A stretch of DNA of 64,000 nt from Temnopleurus reevesii (Eukaryota; Echinodermata; Echinoidea; Temnopleuroida; Temnopleuridae): contig BQKZ01002897.1 of NCBI GenBank assembly GCA_036244855.1, forward strand, positions 11,601 to 75,600, read 5' to 3'. A model generated the notes under the pieces. It had not been told where the DNA came from. It was given only the letters and a program-made list of their open reading frames with translations, and ran no database searches. Both the position numbers and the translations under genes were made by a program. Positions 3,871-63,780 of the stretch are shown one piece after another. How positions within the stretch are numbered: the stretch's first letter is position 1; each line of letters begins with the position of its first letter.

Positions 3871-6447
<2,577 letters not shown>

Positions 6448-17806: not shown

Positions 17807-18202
17807 CTATACCATGGCAGGGTTATCGTACTCTGCATGGTGTCGTATGTGTCTCGTATCGTCCATGATACCGACCGAGATGGCGTCGTCTGATGGTATG
17901 ACCGCCAGCGGCGCTAAACTTATTTGCTGCTGCCGTTGATTCTGCAACTCCTGCTCTCTCTCCCGCTCCCTCTCCCGCACCCGATTCTCCCTTTCCCTCT
18001 CGCGTTGCTCCCTCTCTCTATCTCGCTGCTCTTTGAGTTCGGTTTTCTTTGGTTTGATTTGGACGAGGGCAGAGGCGAGGGCTAGGCGGGGTTGACCGAG
18101 AGGGGGCGTCTCTCCATCTGGCATGGGGAGCTGCAGGAAGACCGTCATGATGCCGGCTTTGCTATCGCTGCAGGTCTCTAGAGCGGCTAATACTTGATAA
18201 TT
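17807..18202 (-). CDS. ATRN: Attractin last exon: conserved cytoplasmic domain and charged tail
   Basis: The acceptor is TTTTATTCTTTTACAG, phase 0, and the stop codon TAG is at 17807-17809; it encodes 131 residues. Residues about 15-50 (GIMTVFLQLPMPDGETPPLG, then LALASALVQI) match the conserved attractin cytoplasmic block (vertebrate AVLSVFVRLP...GLAVASALVDI). Then comes a lineage-specific run rich in Arg-Glu/Gln (about residues 55-95, RERE-type repeats). The C-terminus reads HAEYDNPAMV. The RE-rich segment has hexameric CTCTCC/TCCCGC-type coding repeats and may vary in length between alleles. Confidence 0.92.
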   Translation of the reverse strand, partial: NYQVLAALETCSDSKAGIMTVFLQLPMPDGETPPLGQPRLALASALVQIKPKKTELKEQRDREREQRERERENRVREREREREQELQNQRQQQISLAPLAVIPSDDAISVGIMDDTRHIRHHAEYDNPAMV

Positions 18203-21200
18203 CTGTAAAAGAATAAAACAAAGAGAAAAAAATTCCATGATTAATCCATTACGGAATTGTGACACAACTTCTTTTAAGGATCAATGTGATTTTGGATAGC
18301 CTAAAACAACCTGAGGCGAAACCAAAAACCATGAATAATTTCTTTTTAATCTAGGTTCATCAGTCTGCAAAGACCAATTGTCTGAAATTGTTACCCTCTA
18401 CCAATGGGGGGCCTGCATATATAAGTTTTTATTGTATCAATACATGTGATTAAAGGAATAAATGACCTCTAGTCCAACCAGCAGTTTTGTTACTGACTTT
18501 TAAGGCCCTTTATAGGTAAATATGACTGTATCAGCAGACATTTTGGTCATCATTAATGTCAGGGGTAGTCCCATTAGTCCAAGAAAAAAAGTATTTTGAT
18601 GCCCTATATTGACCGGTCCTCTGAAAATTTCCTAACATGAACTTTCTGCTTTTCAGTCAAATAAAAAAAATCACAGTACAATTGTAGAAACCATATGAAA
18701 CACAACCTAGAAAATACACTTTTAAAATGCACTTGGCCTATTTAATCCCTTGCATGAACTATAATGAGTTTAATTTTTCCCATGAAATTGTTGGAATTCA
18801 AGAATCACGATCACACTTATTATCTTCGAAGCTCACATGACTGCTGCAGACACAAATGTCACGCTTGGAGACAGAAAATTTGCATTATGCAGCTCCAAAA
18901 TATTGTCTAAGATATTTTTCTTGGCATGTACATAAATACAGTCAAACCTCATTAAACAGAGGTCCTTGGGACCAGAGAAATTATCTCTTTATATCAAAAC
19001 CTTGTTATATCAGGGCCAAAATACAATAAAATACAAAGAGATGGGACCAGGAAAACTACCTTGTTATAGCAAGATCTCGTTATAACAATGTTCTTTACAA
19101 TGAGGTTGGACTGTATTAAGGCTCTTTTTCAAACAAGGTGACAAGTTTACGACTTTTATACACTCACCTGGCATTCAGCAACAAGGTCCGGTGGTGCCGA
19201 TTTACTGACCTCCACGTTGACGGTCGCAAATGGTCGACTGGCCATCACAGCCATTTCAACCGCTCGTTGCTAGAAGGGTGGGGTAGGGAGAGAAAAGAGC
19301 GATAGCCATAAGAGTACGACACGTCATAGCAAGTACAGCTCTGCACAACTCTTACAAAAGGATGCAAGTTCATGAGTTGTAAATCAAGAAAATATATTTT
19401 CTTCCATGTGTTACTAATTCCTTTAGATATGTCTAATTTTAGAAAGTATATCGGTTATGCGACCTAGTTTTTTTTTTACAATCATCTAGAGCATACCCTG
19501 AGATAAAATAGAAATTTTAATAAAATTAGGCGCTGCTTCCTTTTGTTATAGTATGACAGAGCCTATTAATCAATGTAAATACCTTACAATTTTCAAAAGT
19601 TTACATTTCTTTAATTTTTCAATTCATTTCTTCTTTCAATTTTTGCTCATTGATCAAGTATAAAACATATTTTCTCACCAAAAAATAAAATAGATATTGA
19701 CTTCATATATAGGAATATAATATTACCAATAAAATTGTGCTGTTTCATTGTTGTAAATATGGAATAGTTCGATAAAGTAATGATCCAGAAACATTAAATA
19801 TAAAAATGGCTGTTGTACAATGTTTCAAGTAAATCATTCATATTGTCAAACGTTTTGCATAACAAGAAATTATTACTTTTCAATAAACCAATAGTCCCCC
19901 AACAGGTCATGCAAATTATAATGCAAAATGCAAAAAATAACAATTTCAATTTAAAAATTAAATAATTCACATATGTTAGTCAGTCAACAAATGCAGCAGC
20001 AATTGAAATAACAGAATTGGAAATCATGACTTTAAAGTGCTTTTTTTTTAGAGTGAAGTAAGTATGAATATTAGTCATTCATGCCTGCTTGTTAGTCATA
20101 AAATTCTACTGCAGGGAGCATGAGATGATCTACAATGTATTGTCAAAATCAATAAACAAGCAGTTCCCAAGACAGATATTAAAATGAATTAGTTCAACAT
20201 TTCTATGCAGCGTGAGGGTAATAGAGCGAACAAACATCTAAAAGCAGTTAATCAGAAATGTGAGTGTAAATTGTTAGCATATCTTGTGACATACCATAAC
20301 ATAAGGTAAAATGGAACATTGGGGTGAAAAGGGACACATCTTCAAATTTCCCTAAATCTTCTCATATTCTACTTTCACTTTTTTTCCTAATTCCCCCCAC
20401 AGGACTAAAGGTCTATCCCAGAGCAGAAGAGTGATCCATCTCATAAATTTTTTTTCTTTGAAGATCTAAGTTTTGTCCCTGTTCACCTTGGTGTTCCAAT
20501 TTAACCCATTTTACGGTACTATAGGTCGTAGGAGGTGTTGCTAGAAAGTTGCAATCAATTGCAAGCCAGAGTTGATTGGTAGGCGGCAATCAAAACCATT
20601 GTTACAAGACAGTCCTGTTAGAAGCGCAGACCCTGCTCGAATTTAATTGTCTTTTTGAATTTCCAACTTATCTGCAGTTGATTTGCCATCAATTGCAACT
20701 TTCTAGCAACATCCTGTAGACATGAATGTTGGTATGGCTTCACAGCATTGACTAGCTAACATGCAAACTTTGCAGCAACATCAAGTGATTTAGGTTTCTT
20801 GACAGGTGGAACTAAAACATAAAATGCAAATCTGAAGCAAAAGACAATCGCTGAAACGAATGAACACAGAAAGCATAAAATGCCAAAATAGAAGTAGCTT
20901 GTGAGAGCCAAAGTAAAGATATGAACTGTGAGAAATTGAAGATTAATAATGGTCCATATTCCAATAAAAAATATTCAACTTAACCCAGGACTAAGATATT
21001 TTTTATTTAGACCAGGCTTTTCAAAAGTTAAAACAGATGGTCTAAATGACAATGACTTAGACCTGGATTAAGTTTACCTCACTATCAGAATACGGACCTA
21101 TGGGTATTGGAAACTGGTACAAACAGTAGACCATTTTTTTCTCTCTTGAAAAAAAAAACCTTGTAACAATACACTGGAAATCTTAGTATATATCTATCGC

Positions 21201-24200: not shown

Positions 24201-27200
24201 ACAATATTTCAGACTGAAAAAAGGGATTATACTACAATAAGTAACATAATTCCAGGGAATATAGAGATTTTTTTATAATTGTGTAGGGTAATAATAATAA
24301 TTAAAAAATCATACAGTTTAAACATTGCATTAGTCTGAAATGACACAGTTCCATGTTTTGTCGTCCACATAGGAGATAGGTGGGAAGCCTATATTTCTTT
24401 AAATTGTTATCAGGGCTTGGGTATATTAAATTTTGAGTTAATGAAATGGAAAAATATATAAATCAAATCAAGTCAAAGTTTCTGCTTAAAAAATAATCTG
24501 CTACTTTTATGAAGGAAGAAGAAAGAAAGAATGTATTAGTGCAAGGTTTATGAAAGAATTATTCTGTTAATGCACCTAAAAAAAGAAAGTCCACCTTCCT
24601 TCAATAAAAACAACAAAAAATGTCTCTTATAAAGATTTGATGCTCTTTCAAATCACCTATAACTTGTCCTATATCCAATTTAATTTAACATCACATTTGG
24701 TTTACTATCTAAATGTGCAAGACATCTTACACAACGTTGGATCAGGTTACCTCAAGAAGATTAAAATTTACATGCTTTTAAGCTAAAAAGCAAGGTGTTA
24801 GACTGGTGCTTTTAGGGTCTACTTACCCTTGCATTGGTGTATCAAATGCAACAAAATATGTTTATTTCATCTACATTTAAATGTTGGCAAATAAAAGTAA
24901 AAAGCTGCCCTATCTTTCAGTCCAAACACACAGAGCCCCTTTCTATTAGTTCTCTGTTACATAATCATATCTAATTAAAATCAACAAGACTATTCAAAAT
25001 CAACAAAACTAATATCATTTTTGACATAATATTCACTTAAAATCAGATTAATCAGACAATATTTGTTCAAATGCTCTATTCAGACTTTCTGTCGGATTTC
25101 AAAATTTTCTTAATTTTTTTGAGTAGCTGTAGATAATTGTTACCAGGGTATTCCAAGTGTTCCCCTAATCACAATTATAATATTACTGGGTGGTGGAACA
25201 TATATATGTTTATATAAGATGACTTGATATATTAGATGGAATATGGGCAAAATATGTTGTATAAAATGGGAAAATATGGTGTTGTGGTGTATAAATGGGG
25301 AGATGAGATGGTCATGTTTTATGAAACCAAAAACAGCGATTCACCCGTTTAAAACAAAGGCTTGGCTATAGCAAGGCAAGTAGCGGTTCGATGATGAAAT
25401 GCCTTTGAGGGGGAGGGCGAGCTCAGAGACTCCGACTCAAACCACCTAAGATCGGAAGATTCTCCCGCCAAGATTATTATGATTCTGGGAATTTTTGCTC
25501 TATGAGCCAGTAGCCCATTATGTTTGAGAAATGTCAATGAAGTTTTACTCTGTTCTACTTGCATTTTTATTGGGGACAATATTGGGTGTAGTTCATTGAT
25601 TTAGATTGATTTTTGTCAAAATTGGGGTTGAATAGAAAAAGAAATGAGACAACATCTATTAAAAGTGGGAGAAATGGATGGTGTTTCATGAAGCTTGCCA
25701 CAGTGACAAGCACTCATTCTCCAACAGTTACCACAGCAAAGGTCAGAGACAGTGCTTTTCATCCATTCAAATCAGCCCTGATTAAATTGCCACTGCTAAA
25801 AACCTTCATGCAACACCCTCCTGCTACCAGGGTTGTGTTTCATAAAGACACTCACAGAGGAACGAACGAACGACTGTGCGCTTGACTGCGGATCCCTTTC
25901 TGCTCTCAATGATAACCCATGTTGCAGAGGTTGCACCGGAGAAATGATCCCCAATCTTACGTAACTCTACAAACAACTTTATGAAATATATCCCTGATTC
26001 ATACCGCCATTCGTAGAGGTAGGCATGATTCCACATACGATTGGTGACCCTTCTTCAGGTGCCAACTCATCCATATTGGTTATCATTAAGTACAGGAAAG
26101 GGTCACTGGCTTTGCAAAGAGTGAATACTTCTAAGAACAGCCTTTATAGAACAGGTTCCAGGAGATTTTTGCGAAAATGAGCTCAAAGCGGGAGATCTCC
26201 CACCGAAACTGGGCAAGTTGGAGTCTCTGTCAATAAAATCCCTTTTTTTTGGGGGGGGGGGGCAAGGGACAACCCAAGATCTTAAGAATCCGGGGGGTGG
26301 GGGGTGGGGGATACGGATTTCCGCACGATCAGAACACTCACCCGGATTCGACGATGGCGGTCATAGCGGTCCTTAACCTTGAGCCCGCCGAGAAAGAGCA
26401 GCAGGAGAGATAGAAAACAGACAAAGAAGGACACCAGAACAGTCACCCAGTTTAGGAGAGGGTGATACTGGGCTACCTGAGGGGAACCAAAAAAGGGGGT
26501 GCAAGGCAACAAGATAGGTTCAGGATTTTTGTTACTTTTTTTTCTAAAAGACCCACCCGAGGGGGCCAAAAAGAGGGTGAAAGTCTACAAAGACTTCGTA
26601 AGGATTCCTTTTTTTTTCGAAAATGGCCACGTGAAGGGGCCAAAACAAAAGAAGGGTGGAAGGCAACACAATAAATTCAGGGCTTGCTATTTTTTGTCCA
26701 AAATGGCCACCTAAAGGGGCCAAAAAGGGGGTGGAAATCAACAAGAAAGGTTATTGACTTTGTAAGATTTTTTCCTAAATGGCCAACCTGAGAGGACCAA
26801 AAAAGGGGGTGCAAGGCAATAAGATAGGTTCAGGACTTTGTTACTTTTTTTCCAAAAATGGCCACCTTTAGGGCTAATAAGGGGGTATGAGGTAGGTTCA
26901 GGAGTTTTTACCAAAAAATGGCCACCTAAAGGGACCAACAAGAGTGTGCAAGACACAATGATTCAGGGTGTTTTTCCCCTTCAAAGATGGTGTCCCAGAT
27001 GGCTACCTGTACAAAAAAAATAACCCAAACTGCTCTTCAAGAGGGCCCTAGATGCTCAAGATTATGTAGGAGGAATTAGGAAAGGTAAATTGTTTTCAGA
27101 TGGCATGAAAAAAGGAAGTATCAATGAATTTGAAGGTGAGAGATTAAAATGAGTTGGATGTGGAAAATTAATTGAAAATGACAAAAGTGGGTCTGAGACA

Positions 27201-27870
27201 GATTTAAGGACATTTCAAAACAATTTCGTTGGGCTATTGCTTCCAAATGGGATCATATATTACCAGTGTGTGAACCTGTCAAATAAAGACAGAGTAGTAA
27301 TGAATCCTTATACCAGAGAAGAGTTAGGGTTAGGATGAATTATTTAAAAAGAAATGATTTTGACCATGGAAAAATGTTTTCAAAAACACATTTCTTCAAT
27401 ATGTTTCGTAGAAAGAAAAGAAAAGTGAATTTGGAGAGGGTTTTAAATGCATGAATATTAGATTAAAGAAAGCTATATTTATGTATAAAATGAGGGAAAT
27501 GGTGAACTGGGAACCTTAGAAGAAAGAAAGAGACAGAGAGTGTGAGAAAAAGAACTACATAGTATACAGAGTAAAACCATATATTTCCAGTGGTTGTTCT
27601 AAATTTAAATTTGATCAGATTTATAGGACTACGCTCTTCATAACTTTTGTGACCATGGGACATAGTAGGAGAGAATAAGCAATGAAAATGACAATTAATC
27701 TCATGAAAGAGATGAAAAATATTGTGATGCCCAAATATGAATTGATACAGATCTGGAAAATACCAAGGAGAAATTATTCACAATAAACCTGTTTTATATA
27801 AAGACATCCTACTAATTCCAAAGAAATATGTTTTTATGAATTTCATTTGTGACAAAATCTTGAATGCATA

Positions 27871-27921
<51 letters not shown>

Positions 27922-30900
27922 TTGGGTACATCTTTGTAAACTGGTGGTCCGCTAGTAGGCAAGCACTCACAAATATACAAAGTAAACAGCACGACTCAAC
28001 CATTCAATAAAAACTTTTCAATTTGAAACACTAAAAAATGGGGTAAAAAATTACACAAGAGTGCTTCACATCATTACAATTGCACACTGAATTTGCAGAA
28101 GGGGTGTGCTATTACACTGACGCTAGATCTGTTAAGAGTTATTTCTGAAAATATGGGAGAAATATTCAGTTAACAGCGTGCAACACATGCAATTCAAATA
28201 CAGAACACAAGTCACCAAATCAAACAAAACACAAGGATATCAAACAGACTTGAAACAGCTAGGTAAAGAATCAAAATGAAAAAAATTCAGCATCTAGTTA
28301 AAATGAAATGAAAATGGGAACCTAAATCAAAATGCATAAGCAGTCACATGACGTCCTAGGAGTAGTAGCATGCAACATGCATGTAAAACTAAAGATGGCA
28401 ACGATCGACCATCGAGGGCCGGCCACAAAAAGTTCCAACAAAATCTCCGGGAGCTTGGTACGACTGGGACGAGTTCTGAACTCACGCCGACCAACCGCGA
28501 TGGAGGGATGGAACGTACCTGTCGGTGACGAAAAGCATCGCAGCGCTGCTTAAACTTCCAGCCCAGCACGAAGAAGAGCAGGAAGAAGAGAAAACAGCTG
28601 AAGAAGACTATGAGGAACTGGAGCAAGGTGAACATCAGTGTGGGAAGGATCAAGAACACCTGTTGGCGGGGTACCGAAAAATCCCAGGGGGAGAAGAAGT
28701 GGGAGCGTGGAGAAAAGGGGTAAAATAATGGAGGAAAAGTTGAGATGTATGGACCAAGGGCATGAAAGTGAAATATAATTGGAATAATATATTAATTTTT
28801 TTTATGAAATATATCTCTTCCAGATACATCAGTGTGGGAACAATCAAGAAAACATGTTGTCGGGGTACAAAAATTCCCAGGGGGAGAAGAAGTGGGAGCA
28901 TGGAGAAAAATAGGTAAAATGGAGGAAAAGTTGAGGTATATGGACCAAGGGCATGCAAGTAGAATGAAATTGTAGTAAAATATCAATTTTAGGATGATAT
29001 ATAGCTACTCCATATGCATAAGTGTGAGAAGGATCAAGAACACCTGCTGTCGGGGTACCACAACCTGGGGGAAAGATGAGGTAAGCATGGAAAATGGGGT
29101 AACAAAGGAGGAAAAGTTGAGATGAATAAATCCCCATGGACCAAGGGCAGAAATGTGAAGGGGAAATGGAATAAAATATGGGTGGAATATATCTGCTCCA
29201 GTCATAGCATTGTTAGAGGGATAAAAACACTTGTTGTGGGGGTACTAAATCCCGGTGGCAAAAAAGAGGAGTATGGAAAAATGCGAAGATAAAGGAGGAA
29301 AAGTTGAAAAGTATGTATCTGCTGAGAAAACCAATGCCATGGACCAAAGCTGAAAATTGGTGTGAGAAATGTATTACAAATACCCTTGTTGTGGGGGTAC
29401 CAAATCCCATTGACAGACAAGGGCAAAATGGAAAGATGAAGGAAATAGTCGAAATGTATGTACCTGCTGATAAAACCAATGCCGTAGACTAGGGAAAGGT
29501 GAACTTCAGCATGGAAAGTATTTAAAAAAAAACTTGTGGGGGTACCAAATCCCATTGGCAGACAAGGGGAGCATGGTAAAATGGGGAAATAAAGAAAGAA
29601 AAGTTGAAGTATATGTATCTGACGATGAAAACCAATGTCATGGGCCAGAAATAGGTAAATTTCAGGATGGGTAGGAAAAAAAACTACTGTTGTGGGGGTA
29701 CCGAAACCTGGTGGAAGGGAGGGGCGAGCATGAAATGGGGGAAATAAAAAGCTAATGATTATATGTAGATGAACCTGATGATACTTCTAAAAATCTACTT
29801 CACCTGTATTAATGTAATTTTTCTGATTGTCACAAGATGAAGATGATTGAAAGATGACACAACCAGTATAGGCATCAAAGAATTTTTCTACTTTCTACTG
29901 AAAAAGAGGAATAGCGCTTGATTTCTATCCAATGTTTGACCGCTTAAATTTTCTCTTCATCTAGCCCTTGTATGCCAATGTTGAGGTCCAGCATTGGAAA
30001 TTATTCCTTTCAAGAATTAAACGATAATCAAAACCTGCTATTAAAAAGAAAATTATTAATCAAAAAGGAGATGGAGAGAGAGAGAGAAGAAAATACTGCT
30101 GCATAACTCTTGACCACGGTGATTTGCCAATAAAGAAAAGATTATTTAAAATGGAATAAAACAAGAATTGCAAAGTGCTAATGATTTTCAAAACCACACA
30201 ACACATCTGCAACAGAAAATAGACAATTAACTTGTTAGTGTTGGCATAGAATAAAAACCACATCAAACAAGATTAAGAGAATATAGGTGCATTTGATTAT
30301 AAAGGACAAAAGTGCAGAATAGCGACTGAGAGAAAGCGACGCAAGGGATTGGTTGGTTAGTTTGTTTGTTTTTTTAGAGCAAGAAGCACAAGGGATATTG
30401 ATACAAAACCTTTCAGGAAAACCCATTCCTCAGAGACGAGGACATTTTCAAGTGAGTGGGGGGCTTACCTGCCGATCACGGCGCGACACCAAACAAGTTT
30501 GGATTCGGACACCCACAAAAAATAGGAGCAGAGTAATAATGAAGGCACCAAGAGCTGCGGCTATGTAATGAAGAAGTTCTGGCTGAATATCCACATATAA
30601 AACCTGATGCGTTAGCGGATGTGTAAGGCGTTGGGGGGTAAAAGGGAGAGGGGTGAAAAGACAAATCATATTTAAACTTGAAATGACATCTTTCAAATTG
30701 TCAAACAATGCTGGTATATCATGAAAAGCTCTTGGATGTCCTCAAGATGGGGAATGTAAGATGCATTGGGCAGGGGGAGGGAGGAGGAAGATGACAAAAA
30801 TATATGGGGACAATAATATTTTTTTTTCATATCGAATAACAACGCAAATTGCTTGTAGTCTCGAATCATGCAGTTAAGATTGTGCACAAGACTCTTGCAA

Positions 30901-33900
30901 ATTCAAAAAGTTATTAGTATTCAAGAAGAAGAGTTCTCATATGCAAATGCTGTGCAGGAATATAAAATAAAGAACATTCGCTATGATACAACTCTGGAAC
31001 GCTGGGAGACAAAACGTGCCATGCATTCTCCCATGATGCACCACCCCAGTGTGTTGCTAGGCTGGGCAAGCCCGGGTGCAGTACGCTACCTGTCTGAGGC
31101 GACGGATCTCGAGGTGCTGGTAGATGCGCCATGTGAAGGTCATGAGACCCAGGAGAAGAACCATACATGATACAAACACTATAAGAGCTTCAAGAACGTC
31201 CTGAAAGTCCCCACTGTACTGCAGGGGAACCTGGTGATTTAAAGTTGAAATATCACTGAATTCCTTCATAACTCAATCATTTTCAAAACTCTCTGCTACT
31301 GTAGGTACAATTGGGAACTGGTAGTTCACAGAAGTTTGATGGAAAGTTGATATCAATTTCGATGTGTCAATCTGTGCAGGAATAGTTAACTCCCTCCCAG
31401 CTAGAGATTCAACTTTTAACACTTACATGGTTTTGTTTGCATTTTTGCACAACTACACACCTCTAGGGAAAGCAACCTTTTTTGTGTAAACCTAGGGAGT
31501 ACACACAATAGCCAGAGCCTACTTTCTATTGTTTGCAGTGCCTAAGCTGGTGGCTTGGGCAATGTAACCCCTACCTTAAGAATAAATGCAACACAGAAAG
31601 GGTTAAGAGAAATTCAGGATCAAAATCTCTATAGATAGCCATATTGCTCCCATAATATCACGGAAGTTTATCAAGTCATTCAAGAAATACAAGCCTATAC
31701 CTTGGCTTTCGGATGTTTGCAAAAACATCATTAAAGAGTGAAGCAAACTTTCTCAATAAAATTAATCAAGCACACTATATACATTTTTGAAGACAGAAAA
31801 TTACAACTTTGCAAAAACATTGCAATCACAATAACCATCAAGAAATAATTAATAAACATCCTCTCTTAAACTTAAACATACATGACATCCCTAAGCACAA
31901 TTGAAACAATCTTTATATCATGTAAATGTCATCAATAGGTTTGGTAAGATAGAAAACTTGTACAAATGATAACACTAAAATTTGAATACTAGTACAAAGT
32001 CCAGAGAAGCTACATGTAAATTGTATGTCTTTCTACAGTCCCTTTCCAGTCCAAACATATTGTCAGCACTGTATATCAAGGTCTCAATATATTCCCCTTT
32101 TTCCTATAACTGTCCTTTTCACTGAAAAAAATGCTACTAAGTAGGATAAAAATCCTTCATATCTGTAGCTCTGCAGCCCATATGTGAATACCGGTTTGTA
32201 AAATGAACAGACATTTGGAAGGCTGATACACATAATATTTGAGCATTCTTGATTTAAAGCAATCTCCTTTGTCATCTTCACTTTACTCTAACAACCCTAG
32301 AGAGAAAAAAAAATCCCAGCTTACCGATGTTTCCAATTGTGAAAAGACAATTCAAGCAAGACAACAAAATACATAGTTGATGTAATAATCATTTTACAAT
32401 CAAGAGAATGTATGATAAAGAGGAGAGAAAATAGTAGAAAAGGAAGTTAGTATAAATGAGCGTTTGATTGTTAGTCATCCGATGTTCACAAATACTGGAA
32501 GGAGAATATATTTATCAGCAGCTATCAGTAGGATGGAATGATAATTATTGATGGAGTTTTATTTCTATCCTAGATGTGGGGCCTGCAACATTGAAGTGAC
32601 TTGTCGACCTTTGGTATATTCTAATTTGCCATTAATATGGTTCACACTTATTGCAGAGACCTTATGGTTTCAGAAACAATGACATTCCCACAGAAGCTTA
32701 TGCGTGCAGCGCAAAAGGCAAGTCGCCAGGGTGAGTTTGTACAAGTTGTCTTCTCACCCTCTCGTGCGAAAAAAGGCACCCAGACGAGTTTGTAAAAATG
32801 GCCTTCTCCCTTTTTTGTCCGAGGCAAGGTATAAAGGCAAGTTTGTACAAGTCGCATTCTTGCTTTCTTCGTCCTACACAAGGCACCAAGGCAAGTTTAT
32901 ACAAATCGCCTTCTCGTCTTTTCAACCAAAACAAGGTTCATTGTTGGGGCATTGAACAACTCGCCTTTAAAATGCCATAAAAGCTTCCGTAGGAGACTTT
33001 CTTAGATTCTGAAAGGCTAAGGTTTAACATTTAAGTAAGAACCCAACTATACATGTAGTCTTACAATCAATGAAAATTGTAGTTTTGGTTGTACATGTAT
33101 CTCCTATGTTACAGGCGCCTGTTTCAACACACCAAACAGTTTGGTTGTAAGATGAATCACCATCACGCGTGATGAACAGAGGAAATGGAAAGGTAGAATG
33201 TGAAAACCAAGAAGAAGAACAAGAAGGGGTAGAAGAAAAAGAAGAAGAAGAAGAAGAAGAAGAAAAAGAAGAAAAAGAAGAAAAAGAAGAAAAAGAAGAA
33301 GAAAAAGAAGAAGGAGAAGGAGAACATGAAGAAGAAGAAGAAGGAGAACGTGAAGAAGAAGAAGAAGAGGGAGAAAAAGAAAAGAAGAAGAATGAGAACA
33401 TAAAGAAAGATGAGGCAGAAGAAGAGAAGGTGGAAGAGAACAAGACAAGAGGAAGAAGAAAAAGAAGAGGAGAAATGAAAAAGAAGACTGAGAAGAAAAA
33501 ATGCCTATATCCCCACCTTTAATTGGCAAAGGCACAAATAGAAAACAAAGAAACACACATGGAAGGACAGAGGGGAGAGATAAAAACTCTAAAAATGAAT
33601 GAATTTTTAAAACAGTTGCTTTAATATTCAGAAGTAGTTAGATGCCTACATCAGAAACAAGTTAGAAGCCAGCAGCAAGGGGCTCTACCCAGTCGATGAC
33701 ACTTACCCTCTCCCCCTGCCTGCGCATGTAACAGTTATGGCACAACCTGCCGAAAAACGCTCCGCAGGACACAATTACAATGATGGCCATCACGACCAGG
33801 GCAACGGCGAAGAGAACAAAAAACGAGCGCGAGTCGGAAGGATGGTCATCATCGTAGCCGTATTTGTCTTCCTCTGAATCCGAATGTTCTTCCGAGTCGC

Positions 33901-36900
33901 AGTCTATGGTTTCTACACAAATCTACCAGAAGGAGTATCCAAATAATGAAATGGTACAAATGGGAAGTTTTGTGGGTTCATTCTCATCACAGGTAAATTC
34001 TGTAAGTCCCGTAGGTTTTGCGCATTCAAAAGCCTTACACGTAATTCCCAGAAATGCATAATGTTTTCATGATAAATAACAAAGAGTAGGTTATTTGGGG
34101 TGATGGGGTCACCAATATGTGTAGACTTTTCATAAAGTTTTTGAAGTAAAAAATGTTTAAAACAACATATTTTTTAAGGATATGAATAATTTAAAATCTA
34201 TTGGCACAAAACAGAAGGAAATCTTTCAGAAGATTGTTTGGAAAAAATCTAAACGTAGAAATATTGTGATGTAGGAGACTTGATTGACACAAAACAAGAA
34301 GGATGAAAGTGCATGAGAGAAACTGGAAGGAAACAAACAGGACAAAACTCATTTGTGACCCGGGATGGGATGGTGATCCAAGAAGACATATTGAAATTGA
34401 TGAAGGATTTGACGAAGATGTATTAATAATTAAAGTTACATAACAAATATCACAAAGTTGTTCTTGACAGAAAGACAGAAGGCATCATCAAACATCTCTC
34501 AACTGTGGGTTTACAAATAAAAAGTCCTGATATTATCCAGTGCATCAATAACTCAATCTAAAACATCAGCACGAATTGGTGGCAGTTACGAGAAAGAGAC
34601 CATGACGAAAGAAGTAAAAAAAAAAAAACCCCGCTTGTAACAATAAGACTACCATACTTGGAATCTAGTTTGTGTACATTACTTGTTGCTAGGTTAGGCA
34701 AGCCTCGAACAGGCGTTAAGGTTGTAAAGAACAACCTTTGTGTTTGGGGTATACATAAAATTTGCATCTATCATTAGATCCGTCTATTGGACATTCACTT
34801 CAATAGTGCAAAATCCTTTTTCACTCTAACCAGCATTGGAAACAGCATGTGGGAATGATTGATATTAAAAAGTCAAAACAAAGCCCATTTTCTGAACATA
34901 TATTATGCTTTTATGCTTTTATGCATTTTCTTGCAAAATAATCTGGCAAAAAATTTGTATCTACAGCTTTGAGCATTTTTTCTAAGTTGCACTTCTGTGA
35001 ACATTCATTTTATGGCCAGTACCAAAACAAGATATTACGTTGCATATTGAGATGACCACATCAAGCAAATCATCCATTTGACTGAATTCCACTTGGTCTC
35101 ATATTAAATTCATCAGACAAATTTCATTCCATACTGCAAGATATTAATCGCTATCTTCTTATCTCCATCTACATGTTAGTGGACAATTGGTAGGAATAAA
35201 CCCTTGGATTCGATTCTGGCTCTAAGCAATGACCGCATAATTATGAGATACTTTGTTTCAGGCGCAGTTGGGCATTTATATCTACAAGCTGCACTCTACT
35301 CGTACAAGTAGTTAAATTATTTAGATCAATGCGACTGCAAGAAAATAACTGACCATGTTAATACAGTAAATAACCATGACGATAGCCACGGAGAAAGAAA
35401 CAATGAAGGGGTTCCCACAGAAATTGGAAAAAAAAGAAAAAAGGAATTCTATGACTTTTCCATGACTTTTCCATGACTGAATTGCTTCTCCCCATGACTT
35501 CCTTTCTGGCAGGAGTTTAAAATCCCAAACATGATAAACACAGATGAATGTGCATCTTACAGAGAGGACATTTTTGCAAGGGCAAGACAGCGAAATTCGC
35601 AAAAATAAAACTACCGCCAGAATTTCAGCCTATACAATATTGAGAGAAGGGATGACATAGAAAAAAGTGCAAAAGAATCCATAAGAGAACAGAATGAAGT
35701 GTAAAGAACATTGATGGAGACATTGAAAGAGAGAGGAGAAAAGAAAGGAGGATGAGATTAGAGGGAGGGATGAATGATGAAGGGGATGGATGGGAGGAAG
35801 GGGTGAGATGAAGGCAAAGGAAAGAGAGAAAGGAAGAGATTGAACACAAATAGGAATGCAGGTAGGGAGAAGTTAACAATCATGAGAAATGAACCCCCAA
35901 ATATAAACACCAAAATGATGTGAAACAGTGAGAAAAATTACATAAAGAGAGAAGGTTGAAAGAAAAAGAAAGGGGAAAAGTATTCTGAGTTTGAAAATTT
36001 TATAACAAAAGTGAAATGGAATGTAACAGAAAGATTAGGAGAGAGAAAAGAGGTCATACAATGTATAAGGAAGAAGAGAGAATGAAGAAATTTTTATAGA
36101 AATAAAGATAGAAAGATAGAATAAAATAGCATGAGGGGAGGAGAAGGAAGAGATAAAAGAGGGAATACAGTATTAGTCAAATACCAAACATGGATGATTA
36201 TTCACGCTATATTAAGTCATATAAGTATGCCTCTAGGAGGTTAATACAAAAACGCCTTCTTCGTAACCTACGGGACTTACGGGAGTGCCCACATTTCGTG
36301 AGCGGTACAGGTCGCAACAAATCCTGGTCATGGACCCAATGCAAGACGCCAATATGATCAACGACATCACGCTAATCGTGATGTCGAAACTAGCAAAATT
36401 GAACGAAAGTCTCCAAATGTTGCCTCCGATTGGGGTTTGTGTGCAGCTGGGGGAATCGGTTAACATAATTGCTGCTGTTGTTGTTGTTGTTGGCATTCCG
36501 GTAAGACCTGTTTGATATTGGCTAATGGATGCACACCCAACCTATAATACAAAGTGAAAGGTGGTAATGACGATAATGATATTTTCTCTTGCCCACAACA
36601 AATTCTATTCGACTAAAGGAAAAAAATCTGTGCCAAGTCAAAAGTGATAGTCAAAGCAGCAACCGTTAAAGTAGCACCAGATCGACGTAGAGCACAGAAC
36701 AAGGCTTTACAAACTCACTTGCTCGAAGCCTGAAGCAACAAAATCGAGCCATCAGGCAAACAAATGGAATGGATACTTGTCTGATTGGGCAAATTATGGT
36801 TTCACAGTCCAAGAACTATATATTCTTGACTGCAAATTAATTTCCTGTGAGTAGGCCCCACCCAGTTGCATGATCTACAATTCGACCAACTTCCATGACA

Positions 36901-39900
36901 CCTCGGCCTACTAAGATGCTATGTATGCGTGTGCAGCAGTTTTGTTCACTTACCGGGGGTATATAAATAGATTTTTGGGCAACAGAAATTGGTCTTCGGT
37001 CAAGTGATTCAAAAAGTCACTTGCCCAACAGAGCAAATGGTTCATAAAATTCTCATAGCACCCTGCAGAGTAGCAGCAGCTCTCATCTTTTAATGGCTTT
37101 CAGTATGACAAGGGTGGCTGGAAATCTAACCATGGCCTCCTGGTTTTGAGGCAAGCACTCTGCTGAACATCCAAATAAATTTGTCAAGGAATGATTGTTC
37201 CATGTAAGGAATTTATCACAATTATTGAAGAAGATAACAGACGGATAACTAGAGAAGAATAACAAATAATAACCCCACATTTTCGGAAGACAGAATTACT
37301 ACTTTTCATTTATACATGTATCATTCTCCAGTGCAGAATTTAAATACATAGAAAAACAGACAACTTTGAAATAGCAGTGAGAGAGTGAGAAATAAATGAA
37401 TTACTAAAGAAGGAGGCAGAGAGAAAGAGGACACACTGACCATAAATTCAACAACTATTGTATGAATATTGCAATGGGGGTAATTTCCTCTCAATAATTG
37501 CAGCTACATATATGTCCATTGTGTATGGCGTAATTTTGGCATTGAACAGTCAGAACTTTATTTTTGCTGATCCAACACCTTGTTTCATTTTTCAACTTCA
37601 TCCTCATGTTTCCAGGGAACCTCTGTCATGTCAAATATATTGTCAAAAACTATATCGATACTGCACACATAAATCAGAAAGCAGTAACATGGAAAATCAC
37701 ATTGAAAGAGCGTCTGAATCAATCTGATATATATTTCTATATGAATAAAGCCTGTTTGGAAAACGATGTTGAATAAACCTAAGACCAATTAAGACAATGT
37801 CCATTACTTTTGAAACAAATATGGAGAGCAGAAAATACAAAAGAAGATAGCGAACATTTCCAAGAAAACTTCAATGACTGAAAATTTCAGAGCCAATAAC
37901 GAATAAAAATAGATGCTGTCAGTTGCCATGTTACAAAAATAAAATATCTCCAGCATTGCAGAACCTGATTCAACAATTTCTATTCATAAAAAGATTTATA
38001 TTATATGGATGAAAATGACTGCAATGGATGTAACATAAAGCCAGGAGGAAAAAAAAATATTAAAAATCTTCAGAGCTCTGGAACACGTACTTCATTAGCT
38101 GGGAAAAAAAGAACATGATTACACACTTTTCTATATTATGAGATAACAATGCATATACACATATATTTGAAATGGATCAAAATAAATGAATGAAATAAAT
38201 CTATTAAATTTCAGAGAACAAACAAAAAATCAAACAATTACATTTATCAACAAACGCTTCCTACAGCATTTTAAAGCAAAATGAACCTTTTTTTTAAATA
38301 CGATTTTGACATTGCTTGTTTTTCAAGTCAAATAAAAAATCATGCACTTTTTTTTTGTGTCACTTGGCTTATTTTTTGTTCACCATCAGATTGTAAATCA
38401 AGGGCCAAATACAATGGGGAGGTAAAAAGGAAGGGTTTTATAAAAACCTACCGGGGTAAATTAATTAGGAAGTCAAAATGCAATATTCAGATAAATATCA
38501 GGTCACTAACAAATGGGAATTATGGCATGTAAAAAATGCTGGATCAAACTATGTAGGCAGGGGTGTATTGAAATTAAGGTTCTTGCAAAATAAAGCAATG
38601 ACTACATATTTTCTGATGTTTGGTGATTGTTTAATTGTATTCAATTTTGTATCTTTTAATGTGTATAATTGTTTGGGAGTAACCAGCATGATTACATTAA
38701 TATATTAATGAATTGTTAGGGGCTGTGTTTTTAGAAAAAATCACAATTTAACCGTTGAACTAATAATTCATTAATTTCAGGTTAAAAAAAATCTTTCAAA
38801 AAAAAAAAATACAAGAATTTTACAAACTGAGCTATAAAGTGTTTTTAAAATATAAATTTCTAGATTATGAAAAACAACAAGTCCTCAATTATCAACTCTA
38901 TGATTATATCAAATTTTAAACCATTTTGCTAAAATCATGGTAAAACTCTTAGAAATCCATTTCAACCCTATCAAATGTGTCTCTGAAATATATATAATTT
39001 TGCGGTGTAATGCCTTTTCATAAAAAAGGCAAATACATATTTTTTACTTTCAAAGTGACCTGTCGCAACCCAGAGAGGGAGCCGTTAGAGGTGTCCATGT
39101 TTACTGTCACTTGCATTTTGGAGAAAGGCAAAGGAGATAGTACCCAATAAAAGGCAAAAAGCCATTCTTAGCAATGCGAGATATTGCTCGGGGCTACGAA
39201 CTTGGTATCAGACGTCCATGCTTTCTGAACATGGCATGCTTCGCAGTACAGCATACATTTTCAGAGCTCCCTCTATTGACTGCGATGGGGCACTTTGATA
39301 ACGTTCCATGAACTTCAACAGAAACACCAATCAACACAGAATATGAATTACAGTGGAAAGTCAGGATAATGAGGTGCTTGGGACCATCAAAAATACCCTA
39401 TTATAGCAGAGTTTAAAAACAGGTTTTTTACCTCTGTATATCAGTTATTTTGCTCCATCAGATCTCTTTATATCAAGTTTCCACTGTAGATGAGTCATTG
39501 GAATGTGATAAAGCAAACTGCTGGACCAAATGATTACTCATGAAAGAAAACTTGGCTACAAAGGCCTTATACTCAATTCCTTCATTCAGGAATCAACAAA
39601 CAAATTTATATGGACCTCATCAAAATTCTGTAATGTTTGGCGGTCCTGGGAGGTGTTTCACCAAGATAAGAAAGACTTTACGCACGACTTTACTTTCGAC
39701 TGGTATCCCTTCTTGTGCGTAATAATTCATAATAGCATGTCCATTCAGCGAAAGAATTGATACCAATCGATCTTAAAGTCGTGCGTAACTTTAAGAACGT
39801 CTTGGTGAAACACCGCCCAGCATTACGGAATGCCCAGCATATTGATGTGAAAAAAGAATGTCTCTGACCTTGAATGACATGGGTGTTGTGAAGTTTGAGA

Positions 39901-42900
39901 GGTAGAAGTAGAAAGTGGTGTTTCCATCCATGCTGAAGTCGTAATCGTAGCGGGATAACTTCTGTCGGTAAGTGTTCTCCACGTACGTACCGTCCACTAC
40001 CGAGACCTCCCCTTCCACATCTCCTACAAAAAAGGGAAAAAAAGTTAGTTAAGAGATTAAATTACATGTTAGTGAATAGAATGTAATGCAAATCTTTGTG
40101 TGGTAAACTTGTTTTCTAAGTCCATGTTTTTCACCATATGTTAAAACCATTGCATGAGAAAATTCAAGGGTTATGGACTTAATCTGGTGTGTACATTTGT
40201 ATATATGACACAATAATCGTAGCGGGATAGCTTCTGTCTGTATGTGTACTCTACTTATGTCCCATCCACTACAGAGACCTCCCCTTCTACATCTCCTACA
40301 AAAGAAAAATAAAAAAAAAAAACAAAAAAAAAACAGTCAGACATCAGTCTTTGCATAAATTTCAATTTGGAGTGGTGAGATATGTTCATCATGTGGTCTC
40401 TAACTCGGCTGCACATGTGGGAACTTTTTTTGTGCATAAGTAATTATAGTCCTAGACAGTGAGTTTGCTGCAAATGGAGCAAAGGAGAGTCGCACCAATT
40501 ATCTGCCAGCATCTCGACATGCCTTTTATTAATAAATTTTTGTTCCAGATTGCTATTCAATGTTACTTATGACCGCTTAAGTTACCCTGCGATTGCTACT
40601 TATGGGTTGACTAAACTTACTTGCAGTGAATGTTATATTGAGGTAGACAGGTCTACAAACCTGCAGATTACACTCTGTATGTCTATCTGGACTATTGGAG
40701 GCGGTCATCATTGTGATGCACCTCTTTGATGCACATTTTGGTACCCCTTTGCCACTCAGCATATTTCCCTGAGGTGGCGGTTTAAGCGTTGACTATACTT
40801 ACTAATATTGAGGTAGACAAGTCTATCAAACTGCAGGATGAATTCTTGGGCTATTGGGGGCAATCATGATTATGATGTGCCTTTTTTGCACATTTTGGTA
40901 CCCCTTCAAAACTTGTCATGTTTCCCCGAGGTGGCCCCTTAAAGGTTGACTATTACTTACTTGCAGTGAATGTTATATTGAGGTATAAAGGTCTGTCAAC
41001 CTGCAGGATAAACTCTTTATCTAAATTTGGACTGTTCGGGGCGGTCACCATCACGATGCCCTTCTTTTTTATACATTTTGGTACCCTGTTACAACTTGCA
41101 ACTCGTCATGTTTCCCCGAGGCTTGACTATACTTACTTTCAGTGAATATTATATTGAGATTAACAGGTCTTTAAACCTGTTCTATTTGGACTATGAGGGG
41201 CAGTCATCATTGTGATGCCCCTCTTTTTTGCACATTTTGGTACCCTTTAAGAACTCATTTTTTCACTATACTTACTTGCAGTGAATGTTATATTGAGGTA
41301 GACAGGCCTATCAACCTGCAGGATAAACTCTATATCTCTATTTGGACTATTGGGGGCAGTCATCATTGCGATTCGGGTGTAATTTTTATCCTCCTCATCG
41401 GAAAGGTTGAAGGTGTATTGCCAATTCATCAAGAGTTTGTCTGTAGGCAAAAGAGATGATTATGAGCGGATGTATGTACAACAGATTCAATTACCAGAGT
41501 TCCATTGGAAATATTAAAACTGAATTAAAAAAAAAATTCCATGACTTTTCTGATTTCCATGACTTCCATTTTGTCAGTTTCCCCCACTTCCTCTCACGGC
41601 CATTTTCTTTCTTTGTGAAAATAATGGAAATTGCAATTTCCATCAATTTTTTTCTTCAATTTGACCATTAAACACGGTTGGAGTGATAGCATTAGTGTCA
41701 TTAATAGCTTATCTATAAGGACACATATAAGATGTCTCCAAGTAAGAATGTGCTCATTTATAGCCTAAAAAACGGAACTTGTGTGACTTTCAAAAAGTAA
41801 AATTTTTCCTTCTATGTATTGGGGCATATTGGAGAATGCTGATTTTTAACACACAAGTTGGCCAGATAGCTCACAGACATAACCTGTAAATTTGGTTTCC
41901 TGACACTTCCTCTTTGAAAATTTATTCTATATTCAATAAGAAAGACTTTTTTTATTACATAATAAAGTGCAATACATTATAACATTAAGTTGAATTCATA
42001 CTCACAATAACAGTAACCACCATTTACAGGGTTCCCATAATACTTGGCATTCGTTTCACATCTGTTAATGAGGGATGAAAAAATAACAAAAAGCAAGATG
42101 GTTCAATACTCTGTTAAAAAAATATATACCGTAAGCTTTATGTGTCATTGGGGCGTTGCTGCCAGCTTGCTGCAAATTGGAAATCGTATTTACATTTGTG
42201 GACTGTCTGCACAACTTTGTAGCAACACCCCCTATGGAGTCTTATACTTATCACTACTTCTGCAAGCATGTCTGAGGATCTCATCAAATGCAAATGCACA
42301 AAAATTATTGTTTGGTAGGAAAGGGGGAATATTTTTGTTGACGCTTCCTGGTACTTTGTTCACTAAATGTACATATCAAGCATTTATAGTAATGACTAAA
42401 AAATTCAGACCAAATAACATGAAACTTTTCATGAGAGCTGGAGAGCGGTACCGTTTGAGATAAAGATTGATATGTACGTCACTACCATACTAATATAATA
42501 CGGTGACGTGTTAATATTGACCTTTAACCCCTGACCTCACATTTCATAGTAGCTGCTAGTGACCCCCTTAGCACCACAGTAGTATTGACCTGTGGTCTGG
42601 TGGCATATGTCTGAGTAACCATTGCAAGAACACAGGTTACACTCACCACAATTCCGTGGACTTTAATAGGTTAATATTGACCTTTAACCCCTTACCTCAT
42701 CTTTCACAGTTGCTGCCTGTGACCCCTTTAGCATCATAGTAGCATTGACCAACAGTCTTAAAAGGAAAATTTATGGTAACATTCACTGCCATTCTACGAA
42801 CAATGATGTGTTAATAGAAAGTGTGAAATACATTACAATGGATGACCTTTAACCTCTGACCTCACCTTTCATAGTTGCTGCCAGTGGCCCCCTTAGTATG

Positions 42901-45900
42901 ACAGTAGCATTGACCGGTGGTCTGGCGGCATCCAAGTAACAGTTTATGGAACATTGATTACAATTACTGCCTTTCTATGAGCACTGATGTGTCAATATAA
43001 ACTTAAGAAATGTATTACAATGGACCTATTGACCTCTGACCTCACCTTTCACAATTGCTGCCAGTGACCCCCTTAGCATCNCATTGACCCCTGGTATGGT
43101 AGCATCCAAGTAACCGTTTATGGAATATTGATTACAATTACTGCCTTTCTATGAGCACTGATGTGTCAATATAAACTTAAGAAATGTATTACAATGGACC
43201 TTTTGACCTCTGACCTCACCTTTCACAATTGCTGCCAGTGACCCCCTTAGCATCACAGTAACATTGACCGGTAGTCTGGTGGCATAAATCAGAGTGACCG
43301 TTGCAGGAGCACAGGTTACATTCGCCACCGTTCTGCGGCCGACCATAGTAGCCCAGCTGGCATGTGTCGCATTGCTCACCTGGCATCAAAGAGATTTTAC
43401 AAGATACATAGAGGAAATAAAGAGGAAAAAGCAAAGATAGACAATCGGTATGCTCTAGAAACTTGAGAGGGGAGAGTGTTCAGTAGACACTCCAGAGTCC
43501 TAGCCCATACTTGACACAATTCCAAGATAAAATAATTCACTCCTGGGAGGTGTTCCACCAAGATAAGAAAGATTTTACGCACGACTTTACGTTCGACTGG
43601 TATCCCTTCTTGCGCTGAATGCGCGTAATATTATGAATGATTACGCACAAGAAAGGATACCAGTCGAACGTAAAGTCGTGCATAAAGTCTTTCTTATCTT
43701 GGTGAAACACCTCCCTGGATTGTGTTTCATAGAGCTTTTCGTACACATACAAGTACGCACGACTGCATGCATGGCTGCCGACCCTTCCTCAGGTGCTCAC
43801 TAATTGACATGGGGGCCACTGAATAAGGAAAGGGTCATTCCTTCTGTGTAGCATCATGTGTACCTCTGCTAAAAATACTTTACGAAACAAGCCCCTGTGT
43901 TGCTAAGAATATTATTTTATCTGCTTATTTGGGCACAACTGACCCAGAAAGGACCAGTTTCTAAAAAAAACCACTTCAATCTTTTTAATTCACGAGGGCA
44001 ATTCCTCAAAAAATATCAGTGAGTTCTACCACAATCCGCAGTATTTACCATATTTATTGAATCACAGAAGAATTATGAGTGGCCGAGACAGATTAATTGT
44101 ACTCAGGGAGCACTCCCTGGGTTTGGGCTTAAAGAAACAAATTACACCATGTTTAGTATTAAATACAGCATATTTCATTTCTTGTGCTCTCTTCACCCCA
44201 AAATACAAACTTATATGTAATTCCTTCTTTCAAACAGACAATCTTATTTTTAAAGTAGCGTGCAATTGATGTGGATCCTAAAACTTTATGATTATTCCTG
44301 ACTTTTAAACATCAGTAATTATGAAATTTCTTATTGTTTTAATGATCAACTTGAATAAAAAAAAAAGGGGAATAAAACCATGCAGTTTTTGTCATAAATA
44401 ATATAATTTCAGAAATTGATGTTAAATGAATATAAACTTGCAAAAAATGAAATCAATTTAAAATTCAATTCAATTTGTAAACTAAATTAAAAGTGCAAAC
44501 TCATACCAAACATAAAAACAATTCAAACAAAAACTACACGTAAAAACATGCATGTTAGAACACCGAATGGCAAAATTAAGTTTAAGAATAAGTTCGATTA
44601 AAACCTAATTCTATTACACATTAAAAAAGTAACATAAATGTCAAACAAAAGTTTACCTGGTGAACAGAAATAACTTGATATTCACTTTTCTAAACATTAA
44701 AATCTGATAGAGCACATATTCATAAAACCATGCAAACTAAAGGAGGTTAAAAGTAAACAATTAAGGTGGTATTCGATAAAGAAAGAAAATGAAATATTTC
44801 TGACTCTGATTTGAAGGCACTTTTTAAAACAATCTGTGGTAGCTTTATGTCCAATAAGAAGATTACATAATAATAAAAAGGTCCATTTATATAGCACAAT
44901 CACTATATGCATATACTCTACTGCGCTTGATACTAGGTACCATATTATTACCCTGGCAATAACTACCGAGCAAGCCAGGTAGGCGCTCAAGCATTCCAAG
45001 GAATAAATTCCTGCCAGGTACCCATTTTTACACATGGGTTGAGTGCAGCACACTATGGGTAAATTTCTTGCTGAAGGAAATTAGCGCCCTGGGTAAGATT
45101 CGAACCACCGACCCTCTAGTTAAGAGGCAAGAGTCCGAACCACTACACCACGACACTTCCATTCAAGGTCAGGTATACTCTAAATACTTTGAAATAGCAA
45201 AAGTGGATATTCTGTTAGTAGAAGGCTTCATGGTACACCATGATATACAGTAGGAATTCCATCATAAAAATATTAAAAAATTGGAATCTAATTTTTCAAT
45301 ATTTGAACTAAAATGGTTGATTAATGAAATTTTTTGCACATTAAAGTTTGTATTAACCAATGGAAGAAGGTATTCTGTTGAACCAAATGCCAGATAGAAC
45401 CCCATAATGTGGCTATATAATTCATATTGATATGATTTCTTGAAAAGACAAAGTATTCATGCAAAGTATTACAGGCACGCTATACTTCCAGAGGCACACT
45501 CCAAAGACACACACAACAACAAACAGATTATTGGTCACAAGACAATTCATGAGGGTCACCTGGGTTTTGTTTCATAAATCTGTTCATAGAGGCATACATG
45601 TACCTCTACGAGAAGCATTATGAAACACAACCCTGGCGAGATATCACAATTTTACCTAAATTTAGCTCTTAAAAGATGCATCTTAATGTTATTCAATGAT
45701 AATGACCCATAAGGATTGAAAGCCTTTTGCACTACACAAAAGCACCATTTAATTCTAACAAGCCTAACATATTTTACCCAACCATAATATGATTTGGATG
45801 GATATGGGCATCCCAAATCGTATATTCGGGTTTTTCATTTTCTGAATGATTTATAAAAATGGATGACAATTTTTATTTTGGTTTGGAATAAAAACTCATG

Positions 45901-62869: not shown

Positions 62870-63780
62870 AAGAGATAAATTGAGAAAAAAAGGGTCATGG
62901 GTAAGACAATGAAAAAGTAAATGTAAAAGAGAGGAATGAAGAGAAAGGAAGAGGAGGTGGAAGAGGGAACTGCAGATCATAGAGAATAGGCAGATAAGTA
63001 GAGCAGGGAAGAAAGAGANGACCACATCTCGGCCGTTACCTCGCTACCGAACAGAGAACCGCCATACATGTAGAAATTATCCTGTGAGAAAGAAAATGAG
63101 AAGTAGATTAATGAATCTCATAGGGGGAACCAATCCCTGGAATAATCGTTTTCTCATTGAATGAAGCAAAATCAGAAGACCCAGCGGTGAAAATTTGAGC
63201 AAAATCGGACAATCCGTTCAAAATATATGAATTTTCAAATTCTCAAAGATATGGCAATTGCAACCGCAGATGGGGTTCCGCGCTATCAGCAACATTGGCA
63301 GAAACTGGCTGGAGAGGGAACTGCAGAACATAAAGTATAGGCAGAGAGGCAGAGAACTGGAAACTGAGGGAGAGAGAAAGAGAGACAGACAAATAGATAA
63401 AAGGGTGTAAAATACATTGACAACAGAATAGGAATGAGAAAGAACAGTTAAAAGAGAGAAGAGAAGAGTAGGGAACAGAACGTGAGGAGAAAGAGGGTGG
63501 ATAGAGAAATGCTGACCAAAAAAAGAAAGGGGATAAGTGATTGAAAAGAAGAGAAATAGAGATAGGGAGAGAGAGACAGAAAGATAGATAAAAGGGTATA
63601 TGTTGACAACAGCATGAAAATGAGAAAGTACAAGTAAAAGAGAAAAGAGAAGAGAGGGGAAGAGAAGGCTAGGAGAAAGGGGAGAGTTTACAGGGAAATT
63701 CTGAACAAAAAGAATGGGGAAAGTGGTAGAGAGAGAGAGTGAAAGAGAGAAACTAGATAATAAAAGGGTGCGTAATATGT
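62870..63780. repeat. Purine-rich tandem repeat, period about 185 bases
   Basis: Units share AGATAGATAAAAGGGT, TTGACAACAG(A/C)AT, GAGAAAG and GGAGAAAG(A/G)GG at about 63390, 63585 and 63755, plus an earlier related block. In transcript sense it is a long CT-rich tract. The exon fragment at 63018-63085 is embedded in this array. Confidence 0.7.
63018..63085 (-). pseudogene. Partial copy of the acceptor edge of exon 61500-61716
   Basis: It repeats the acceptor (TCTCACAG) and about 65 exon bases reading DNFYMYGGSLFGSEVTAEMW, with one synonymous difference. It is then broken off into purine-rich repeat DNA next to an undetermined base (63019). It lies 1.35 kb upstream of the real exon in transcript order. 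Confidence 0.85.

Follow-up and report, generated by a model that had tools for sequence, protein, structure and literature searches.

Six candidate alternative membrane-anchor exons in an attractin gene of the sea urchin Temnopleurus reevesii

Results

The window analysed here, a 64,000-nucleotide stretch of the Temnopleurus reevesii genome (GCA_036244855.1, contig BQKZ01002897.1, positions 11,601 to 75,600), carries an attractin gene on its minus strand. Domain matches agree with the gene assignment made in an earlier sequence-only reading: on a model joined from the window exons in genomic order, with the N-terminal part beyond the window and some exons unplaced, we found Beta-prop_ATRN-LZTR1 (4.1e-81), PSI (1.6e-11), EGF_LMN_ATRN (6.3e-15) and GBD_ATRN (6.3e-22). 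The attractin-type beta-propeller, PSI, attractin EGF and GBD-like stem follow in family order, which places the gene with ATRN and ATRNL1. The stem domain finishes at donor 39869, the end of a constant upstream exon (39869..40023, minus strand; acceptor at 40023 placed from the sequence) whose donor, AAG/GTCAGA, is open to each of the six cassettes described below. On the far side of a 20.6-kb intron lies a constant 102-nt exon of phase 0-0 (19168..19269, minus strand), where MASRPFA follows the membrane helix, a second mark of the attractin family. The last coding exon (17807..18202, minus strand; stop codon 17807-17809) encodes the cytosolic tail. These flanking exons had been proposed as shared by the array, which is supported, except that the lower coordinate of the downstream exon is 19168 and not 19169.

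Between these two constant exons lie six minus-strand exons, which we call cassettes, all found where they had been reported; each is preceded by AG and followed by GT, has phase 0-0 and contains an open frame. Two of them, group A, carry 30-40 extra residues on the outside. Cassette A1 (36281..36541, 261 nt, 87 aa) has a Thr-rich stalk of about 40 aa, a marginal helix and a basic tail ending in NVGTP, and cassette A2 (33707..33922, 216 nt, 72 aa) has an acidic stalk of about 30 aa, a strong helix and a basic tail ending in RQGER. The four group B cassettes each consist of a helix and a 14-residue basic tail. B1 (31090..31230, 141 nt, 47 aa) has a helix of the attractin/MEGF8 type, B2 (30469..30603, 135 nt, 45 aa) shows the weakest homology and codon signal of its group, B3 (28519..28659, 141 nt, 47 aa) comes nearest to MEGF8 in its helix (57% across 30 aa), and B4 (26342..26476, 135 nt, 45 aa) shows 53% identity with B3 across 32 aa. 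Every exon encodes one hydrophobic helix with a basic tail, as had been claimed, but the helix of A1 is only marginal: its best 19-residue mean hydropathy is 1.98, and on an approximate insertion scale it scores +0.5, where the helices of the remaining five cassettes score -2.5 to -5.1. A net positive segment follows the helix in every cassette.

When cassette B3 is joined to the MASRPFA exon, the product can be aligned with MEGF8 from 9qty (E 1.7e-8). Searched against the genome, the same query matched this contig twice and a MEGF8 paralog once at E 0.001 or lower; the other cassettes were missing from its output, and diverged copies elsewhere could thus escape it. The identity of the paralog rests on the match to a solved structure, as Pfam returned only sub-threshold unrelated matches on its exon. 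A single transmembrane segment at this point, stated in the sequence-only reading for the vertebrate proteins, fits MEGF8 of solved structures and the T. reevesii paralog. In the paralog, stem, one helix and RASRPF stand in one open frame with no intron between helix and motif.

Comparison of the cassettes revealed two groups of related exons. B1 and B3 (z 6.2), B3 and B4 (z 5.5) and A1 and A2 (z 5.8) are clearly homologous, as are B3 (z 5.8) and B1 (z 4.8) to MEGF8, with 0/1000 shuffles as good in each case. The remaining group B pairs are weak (B1-B4 and B2-B4, both z 1.6; B1-B2, z 0.0), as are B4 and B2 against MEGF8 (z 1.6 and -0.7), and the signal of duplication for B2 is weak at z 2.7, with 25/1000 shuffles as good. 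At E 0.002 or lower, B3 or MEGF8 also picks up some hydrophobic but unrelated stretches of the window. Homologous, adjacent, same-phase exons within one intron are clear for five of the six cassettes and weak for B2. The proposed origin by duplication holds for B1, B3 and B4 and for the A pair, applies weakly to B2, and stops short of a link between the two groups. B3 is probably the ancestral anchor.

A scan of both strands for phase-0 membrane exons returned 13 matches on the minus strand, all within the six cassette loci, and none on the plus strand; no further phase-0 cassette was found on either strand. In phases 1 and 2, the only locus was 48863-49087, outside the intron. Order-2 Markov versions of the intron contained one such locus in 25 of 200 cases and more than one in 0 of 200, at thresholds chosen after the exons had been seen. 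With that proviso on the thresholds, the scan and the Markov control led us to reject chance open frames as the source of the array. Simulated neutral decay of B3 (20000 runs per setting) left an intact membrane exon in 0.2% of runs without indels and 0.015% with indels at 51% identity, and in 2.8% and 0.5%, respectively, at 69% identity. Real group B pairs share 34-50% nucleotide identity; for the closest pair, the results at 69% give the fairer comparison because its divergence is split between two branches. Synonymous codon choice differed from the intron null in all six cassettes (p 0.0143 or lower), in four of them at 0.0005 or lower. This signal is exon-like in four cassettes and intermediate, at its weakest, in B2 and A1; the per-codon score of some intronic open stretches exceeds that of every cassette.

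Scored with approximate weights against 1104 intronic GTs, the cassette donors fall at percentiles 97.1-99.9; the acceptors, against 906 intronic AGs, fall at percentiles 86.5-99.7. Introns between cassettes measure 486-2476 nt, a spliceable length. Exclusivity through splice-site classes or too-short introns was rejected, since all sites are GT-AG and the shortest intron has 486 nt. Nor is exclusivity enforced by frame, as all exons are phase 0 and skipping, single use and joint inclusion are all in frame. A Dscam-type docking element, which would pair with a selector next to each variable exon, gave no convincing signal in two candidate regions (39868-38400 and 20800-19290). Pairing in 39868-38400 did not rise above that of 12 shuffles. 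For 20800-19290 there is a hint: all 12 shuffles fell below the best mean pairing on either side, and only 5 and 10 of the 12 fell below the weakest pairing. In a comparison with one shuffle, two of four settings gave stronger and two gave weaker mean pairing for the real sequence. Pairing of a G-rich candidate at 20393-20432, the best of 147, with the cassette flanks was not clearly above that of random stretches.

Two cassettes are preceded by repeats on the minus strand. Tandem copies of the B3 acceptor region, together with the 5' part of this exon, occupy 28632..29748 at a spacing of about 145-195 nt, and the B4 acceptor region forms a tandem repeat of about 77 nt over 26469..26940, with six copies of one family; AG/GT is kept in three of the four upstream copies listed by a motif. 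This attractin gene contains many partial copies of exon edges.

The distance from helix to motif is exact in group B. Counted from the first K or R behind the helix up to the A in ASRPF, the spacing is 22 residues in 4/4 B cassettes and 2/2 MEGF8 proteins, whereas the A cassettes have 23 and 24, their link being one or two residues longer and containing Gly or Gly/Pro. Gly also occurs in the link of the MEGF8 paralog and so does not by itself mark A cassettes. MGRN1, the ligase expected to act through this motif, was not recognised in the T. reevesii genome in searches with approximate human queries: these gave 3 and 6 matches at 31-43% identity, none of which reached beyond the RING part, and on inspection by eye we took them for other RING proteins.

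Discussion

The six cassettes lie between one stem and one tail, and we consider it somewhat probable that they arose by duplication and serve as alternatives, one per transcript. One-cassette use is inferred from topology and from precedent. Under the positive-inside rule, a positive segment after the helix favours the cytosol. Two cassettes in a row would place one such segment outside and MASRPFA out of the cytosol, which argues against multi-pass attractin made by splicing several cassettes together in some transcripts; even with every combination in frame and the intervening introns spliceable, we regard that as very improbable. Soluble attractin occurs in humans, and here skipping all cassettes (39869 to 19269) would join stem to tail in frame, while tandem copies of acceptor regions precede B3 and B4. 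An array serving mainly to toggle between anchored and soluble attractin, with repeated decoy acceptors tuning inclusion, would nevertheless leave several different, individually preserved anchors unexplained and seems improbable to us.

A more serious alternative, if still an unlikely one, is that only the canonical B3 is used, perhaps with B4 and B1, and that the rest are decaying copies or chance frames. The weak codon signal and homology of B2, the marginal helix and weak codon signal of A1 and the frequency of exon-edge copies in this gene would fit it. On the other hand, reading frame, helix, basic tail and splice sites remain intact in all six, which simulated neutral copies seldom achieve (0.015-2.8% of runs at 51-69% identity); moreover, B2 keeps the exact 22-residue spacing, and A1 and A2 are related (z 5.8).

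In mammals and flies, proteins of the attractin-MEGF8 family are described as adapters of the MGRN1 ubiquitin ligase in three papers (PMC12752501, PMC13161197, PMC8254101), one of which reports that MEGF8 and Drosophila Distracted depend on the MASRPF motif to associate with MGRN1 (PMC8254101). T. reevesii attractin has the attractin domains and the stem-helix-MASRPFA layout in common with the adapters ATRN, ATRNL1 and MEGF8. If one cassette enters each mature transcript, the same extracellular region would be linked to the same cytosolic tail by one of six helices, and the MASRPF motif, by analogy with mammals and flies, would recruit MGRN1. The MEGF8 helix extends into the cytoplasm and places the ligase beneath its receptor. 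The four B cassettes, with helix length unchanged and membrane-facing and proximal residues varied, may then meet another receptor or membrane partner with the ligase still in register, and the two A cassettes, with their outside stalk and longer link, may loosen or shift the coupling. Splicing choice could thereby set the target or the strength of receptor turnover. A bolder and rather unlikely reading is a six-way switch of receptor-degradation specificity in which splicing, and not separate genes, would pick which receptors leave the surface, through six forms of a ubiquitin-ligase adapter differing only in helix, stalk and first cytosolic turns. Weighing against a part for the anchor, MC1R and MC4R were each served by overexpressed MEGF8, by ATRN and by ATRNL1 in PMC12752501, where MOSMO specificity was ascribed to the stem.

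Alternative membrane-anchor exons are already known elsewhere. Exon 17 of insect Dscam1, which has been studied at the RNA level, comes as two exons, against six here, in a protein family unrelated to attractin. PMC8042237 gives two in each Coleoptera species listed. Arthropod N-cadherin has the paired mutually exclusive exons ME-18a/b, each with part of the single transmembrane domain; these are two exons of 68-70 aa against six in attractin, and the anchor isoforms showed no difference in localisation (PMC2655722), which likewise weighs against a part for the anchor. Tandem duplicated exon substitution in human, fly and worm likewise uses homologous exons alternatively and is enriched in membrane proteins, with eight such exons in Drosophila mrp; the sections available from that survey contain no case of six alternative single-span anchors (PMC9741552). 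Attractin anchor isoforms are absent from the titles and abstract openings of the open-licence attractin papers among the matches listed, in line with the statement in the sequence-only reading that no such description was known.

To our knowledge the six-fold array in attractin would be the largest set of alternative single-span membrane anchors, compared with two in Dscam1 and N-cadherin; Drosophila mrp is an ABC transporter and not a single-span protein. How MGRN1 adapters pick their receptors is described as unresolved in PMC12752501 and as needing work in PMC13161197. With ectodomain and ligase-binding tail both kept constant, such natural anchors would make the role of the membrane helix directly testable.

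Results

Six exons of the attractin gene, each encoding a putative membrane helix and a basic tail, had been proposed by the sequence-only reading. We confirmed all six of these cassettes, named here by their lower coordinates, on the minus strand at 36281-36541 and 33707-33922 (group A) and at 31090-31230, 30469-30603, 28519-28659 and 26342-26476 (group B). All are preceded by AG, followed by GT, divisible by three in length and open in phase 0 (6/6). The shared upstream donor was also borne out at 39869, where exon 40023-39869 ends in AAG before GTCAGA. The common downstream exon, which carries the cytosolic MASRPFA motif, is present as described, but its lower bound is 19168 rather than 19169 (19168-19269, 102 nt). 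Ranked with splice-site weights, the donors lie at the 97.1-99.9 percentile of the intron's own GT sites and the acceptors at the 86.5-99.7 percentile of its AG sites. The helix of 36281 is marginal. Joined into a protein model of only those exons that could be placed, the gene's 5' end lying outside the window, the sequence matched the Pfam attractin beta-propeller, attractin EGF and attractin GBD-like stem. As the stem match ends at model residue 670 and the pre-cassette exon at about residue 669, the array is placed downstream of the stem and upstream of the cytosolic exon.

Both strands were scanned for phase-0 stretches, 90-400 nt long and bounded by AG and GT, that encode both a hydrophobic 19-mer and a short basic tail, using thresholds set with the exons already known. 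The minus strand gave 13 hits, all on the six cassette loci, and the plus strand gave none under the same criteria. The intron was also randomised 200 times with an order-2 Markov model: 25 of these versions contained one such locus and none contained more. A single phase-1 locus (48863-49087) lies elsewhere than the cassettes. The array is real.

Synonymous codon choice in the cassettes, with amino acids given, was compared with that of 1002 reference codons (constant exons plus the genome's MEGF8 paralog) and with that of intron triplets. It exceeded the intron expectation in every cassette (4000 draws; p = 0.0050 for 36281, 0.0005 for 33707, 0.0005 for 31090, 0.0143 for 30469, and 0.0000 for both 28519 and 26342). 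Four cassettes (33707, 31090, 28519 and 26342) deviate from the exon expectation by no more than two standard deviations, and 36281 and 30469 score between the two expectations. Because the per-codon maxima of some intronic open stretches (0.57-0.73) exceed the best cassette (0.505), the codon signal is support, not proof. Group B pairs share 16-33% amino-acid and 34-50% nucleotide identity; their second codon position is the most conserved (0.47-0.60), a value that hydrophobic composition lifts by itself. In neutral decay simulations, the share of runs with a cassette still intact was 0.015-0.2% at 51% identity and 0.5-2.8% at 69% identity.

Alignment scores against 1000 block shuffles per pair joined 31090 with 28519 (z 6.2), 28519 with 26342 (z 5.5), and MEGF8 with 28519 (z 5.8) and 31090 (z 4.8). 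The 30469-28519 link is weak (z 2.7, equalled by 25/1000 shuffles). The remaining B pairs were not significant (31090-26342 and 30469-26342, z 1.6 each; 31090-30469, z 0.0), nor were 26342 (z 1.6) and 30469 (z -0.7) against MEGF8. The A cassettes joined each other (z 5.8). Since the top of the eight A-to-B pairs, 36281-28519, reached z 2.7 (19/1000 shuffles), we claim no link between the groups. Searching the window with either A cassette returned the other as top non-self match (E 0.001-0.002); however, unrelated hydrophobic stretches also score E 0.002 or lower with 28519 and MEGF8 as queries, so E-values alone are a weak guide here.

A search of the genome (558 Mb, 10433 contigs) with 28519 joined to the MASRPFA exon gave one other match, on contig C3796, in a frame matching MEGF8 of the solved structure 9qty across stem, helix and motif (E 6.6e-46). 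In this MEGF8 paralog, stem, helix and RASRPF share a single open frame (L003, 1429-2256, minus strand, matched to 9qty); with no intron between helix and motif, its anchor is not swappable in the same way. Measured from the first K/R that follows the helix, the A of ASRPF lies at a distance of 22 residues in all four B cassettes, in the paralog and in the MEGF8 comparison sequence, which we take to be human. In 36281 this distance is 24 and the link contains G and P; in 33707 it is 23 and the link contains G; the paralog link has one G as well. Before the helix, 36281 has about 40 extra residues, Thr-rich, and 33707 about 30, acidic.

Reading frame does not impose exclusivity on the cassettes. 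Tests for docking elements found no excess over 12 shuffles in 39868-38400; in 20800-19290, the best mean pairing exceeded 12/12 shuffles on both sides and the weakest pairing did not. A G-rich stretch upstream of the MASRPFA exon (20393-20432), the best of 147 candidates, pairs in silico with the cassette flanks at a strength matched by 2-16% of random sextets from gene or plus-strand stretches. As a docking element it is a weak hint, unconvincing for the best of 147. Tandem repeats lie upstream of 28519 (28632-29748, acceptor region and first exon bases) and 26342 (26469-26940, acceptor region), with the AG retained in several copies; local duplication in the gene may have left them as by-products, or they may act as decoys. 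Elsewhere along the gene, other attractin exons or their edges (laminin EGF, stem, PSI, kelch) often recur as partial tandem copies (42508-43328, 40581-41372, 40214-40303, 51236-52159, 53796-54039 and 63007-63096). Related element copies at 39644-39824 and 43541-43721 (79% over 185 nt) have, by eye, long inverted arms and are MITE-like. Open frames of a neighbouring plus-strand gene (4679-5379) resemble MORN repeats.

Discussion

Judged from sequence, the array most likely supplies attractin with alternative membrane anchors; its least certain members are 30469 and 36281. One cassette would be used per transcript. Mammalian ATRN, ATRNL1 and MEGF8 recruit MGRN1 to receptors (PMC12752501, PMC13161197), and the MASRPF motif of Drosophila Distracted is required for Mgrn1 association (PMC8254101). 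MGRN1 is a putative partner in this species; searches of the genome with human queries did not recognise it, a miss for which short exons could account.

The B cassettes keep helix length and vary its surface, and the A cassettes vary length, link and stalk, so cassette choice would be expected to change the receptor or partner met, with MGRN1 recruitment common to all. The MEGF8 stem is described in PMC8513608 as packed against the helix, "tightly sandwiched"; an A-type stalk would therefore loosen this coupling. Against a role for the anchor in partner choice, PMC12752501 reports that all three mammalian adapters, when overexpressed, could serve MC1R and MC4R, and attributes MOSMO specificity to the stem, and N-cadherin anchor isoforms showed no difference in localisation (PMC2655722).

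Dscam1 exon 17 and N-cadherin ME-18 are systems of the same kind, but each has two exons, whereas attractin of T. reevesii has six. What is new here is six anchors, in a protein that is likely an adapter for a ligase that degrades receptors.
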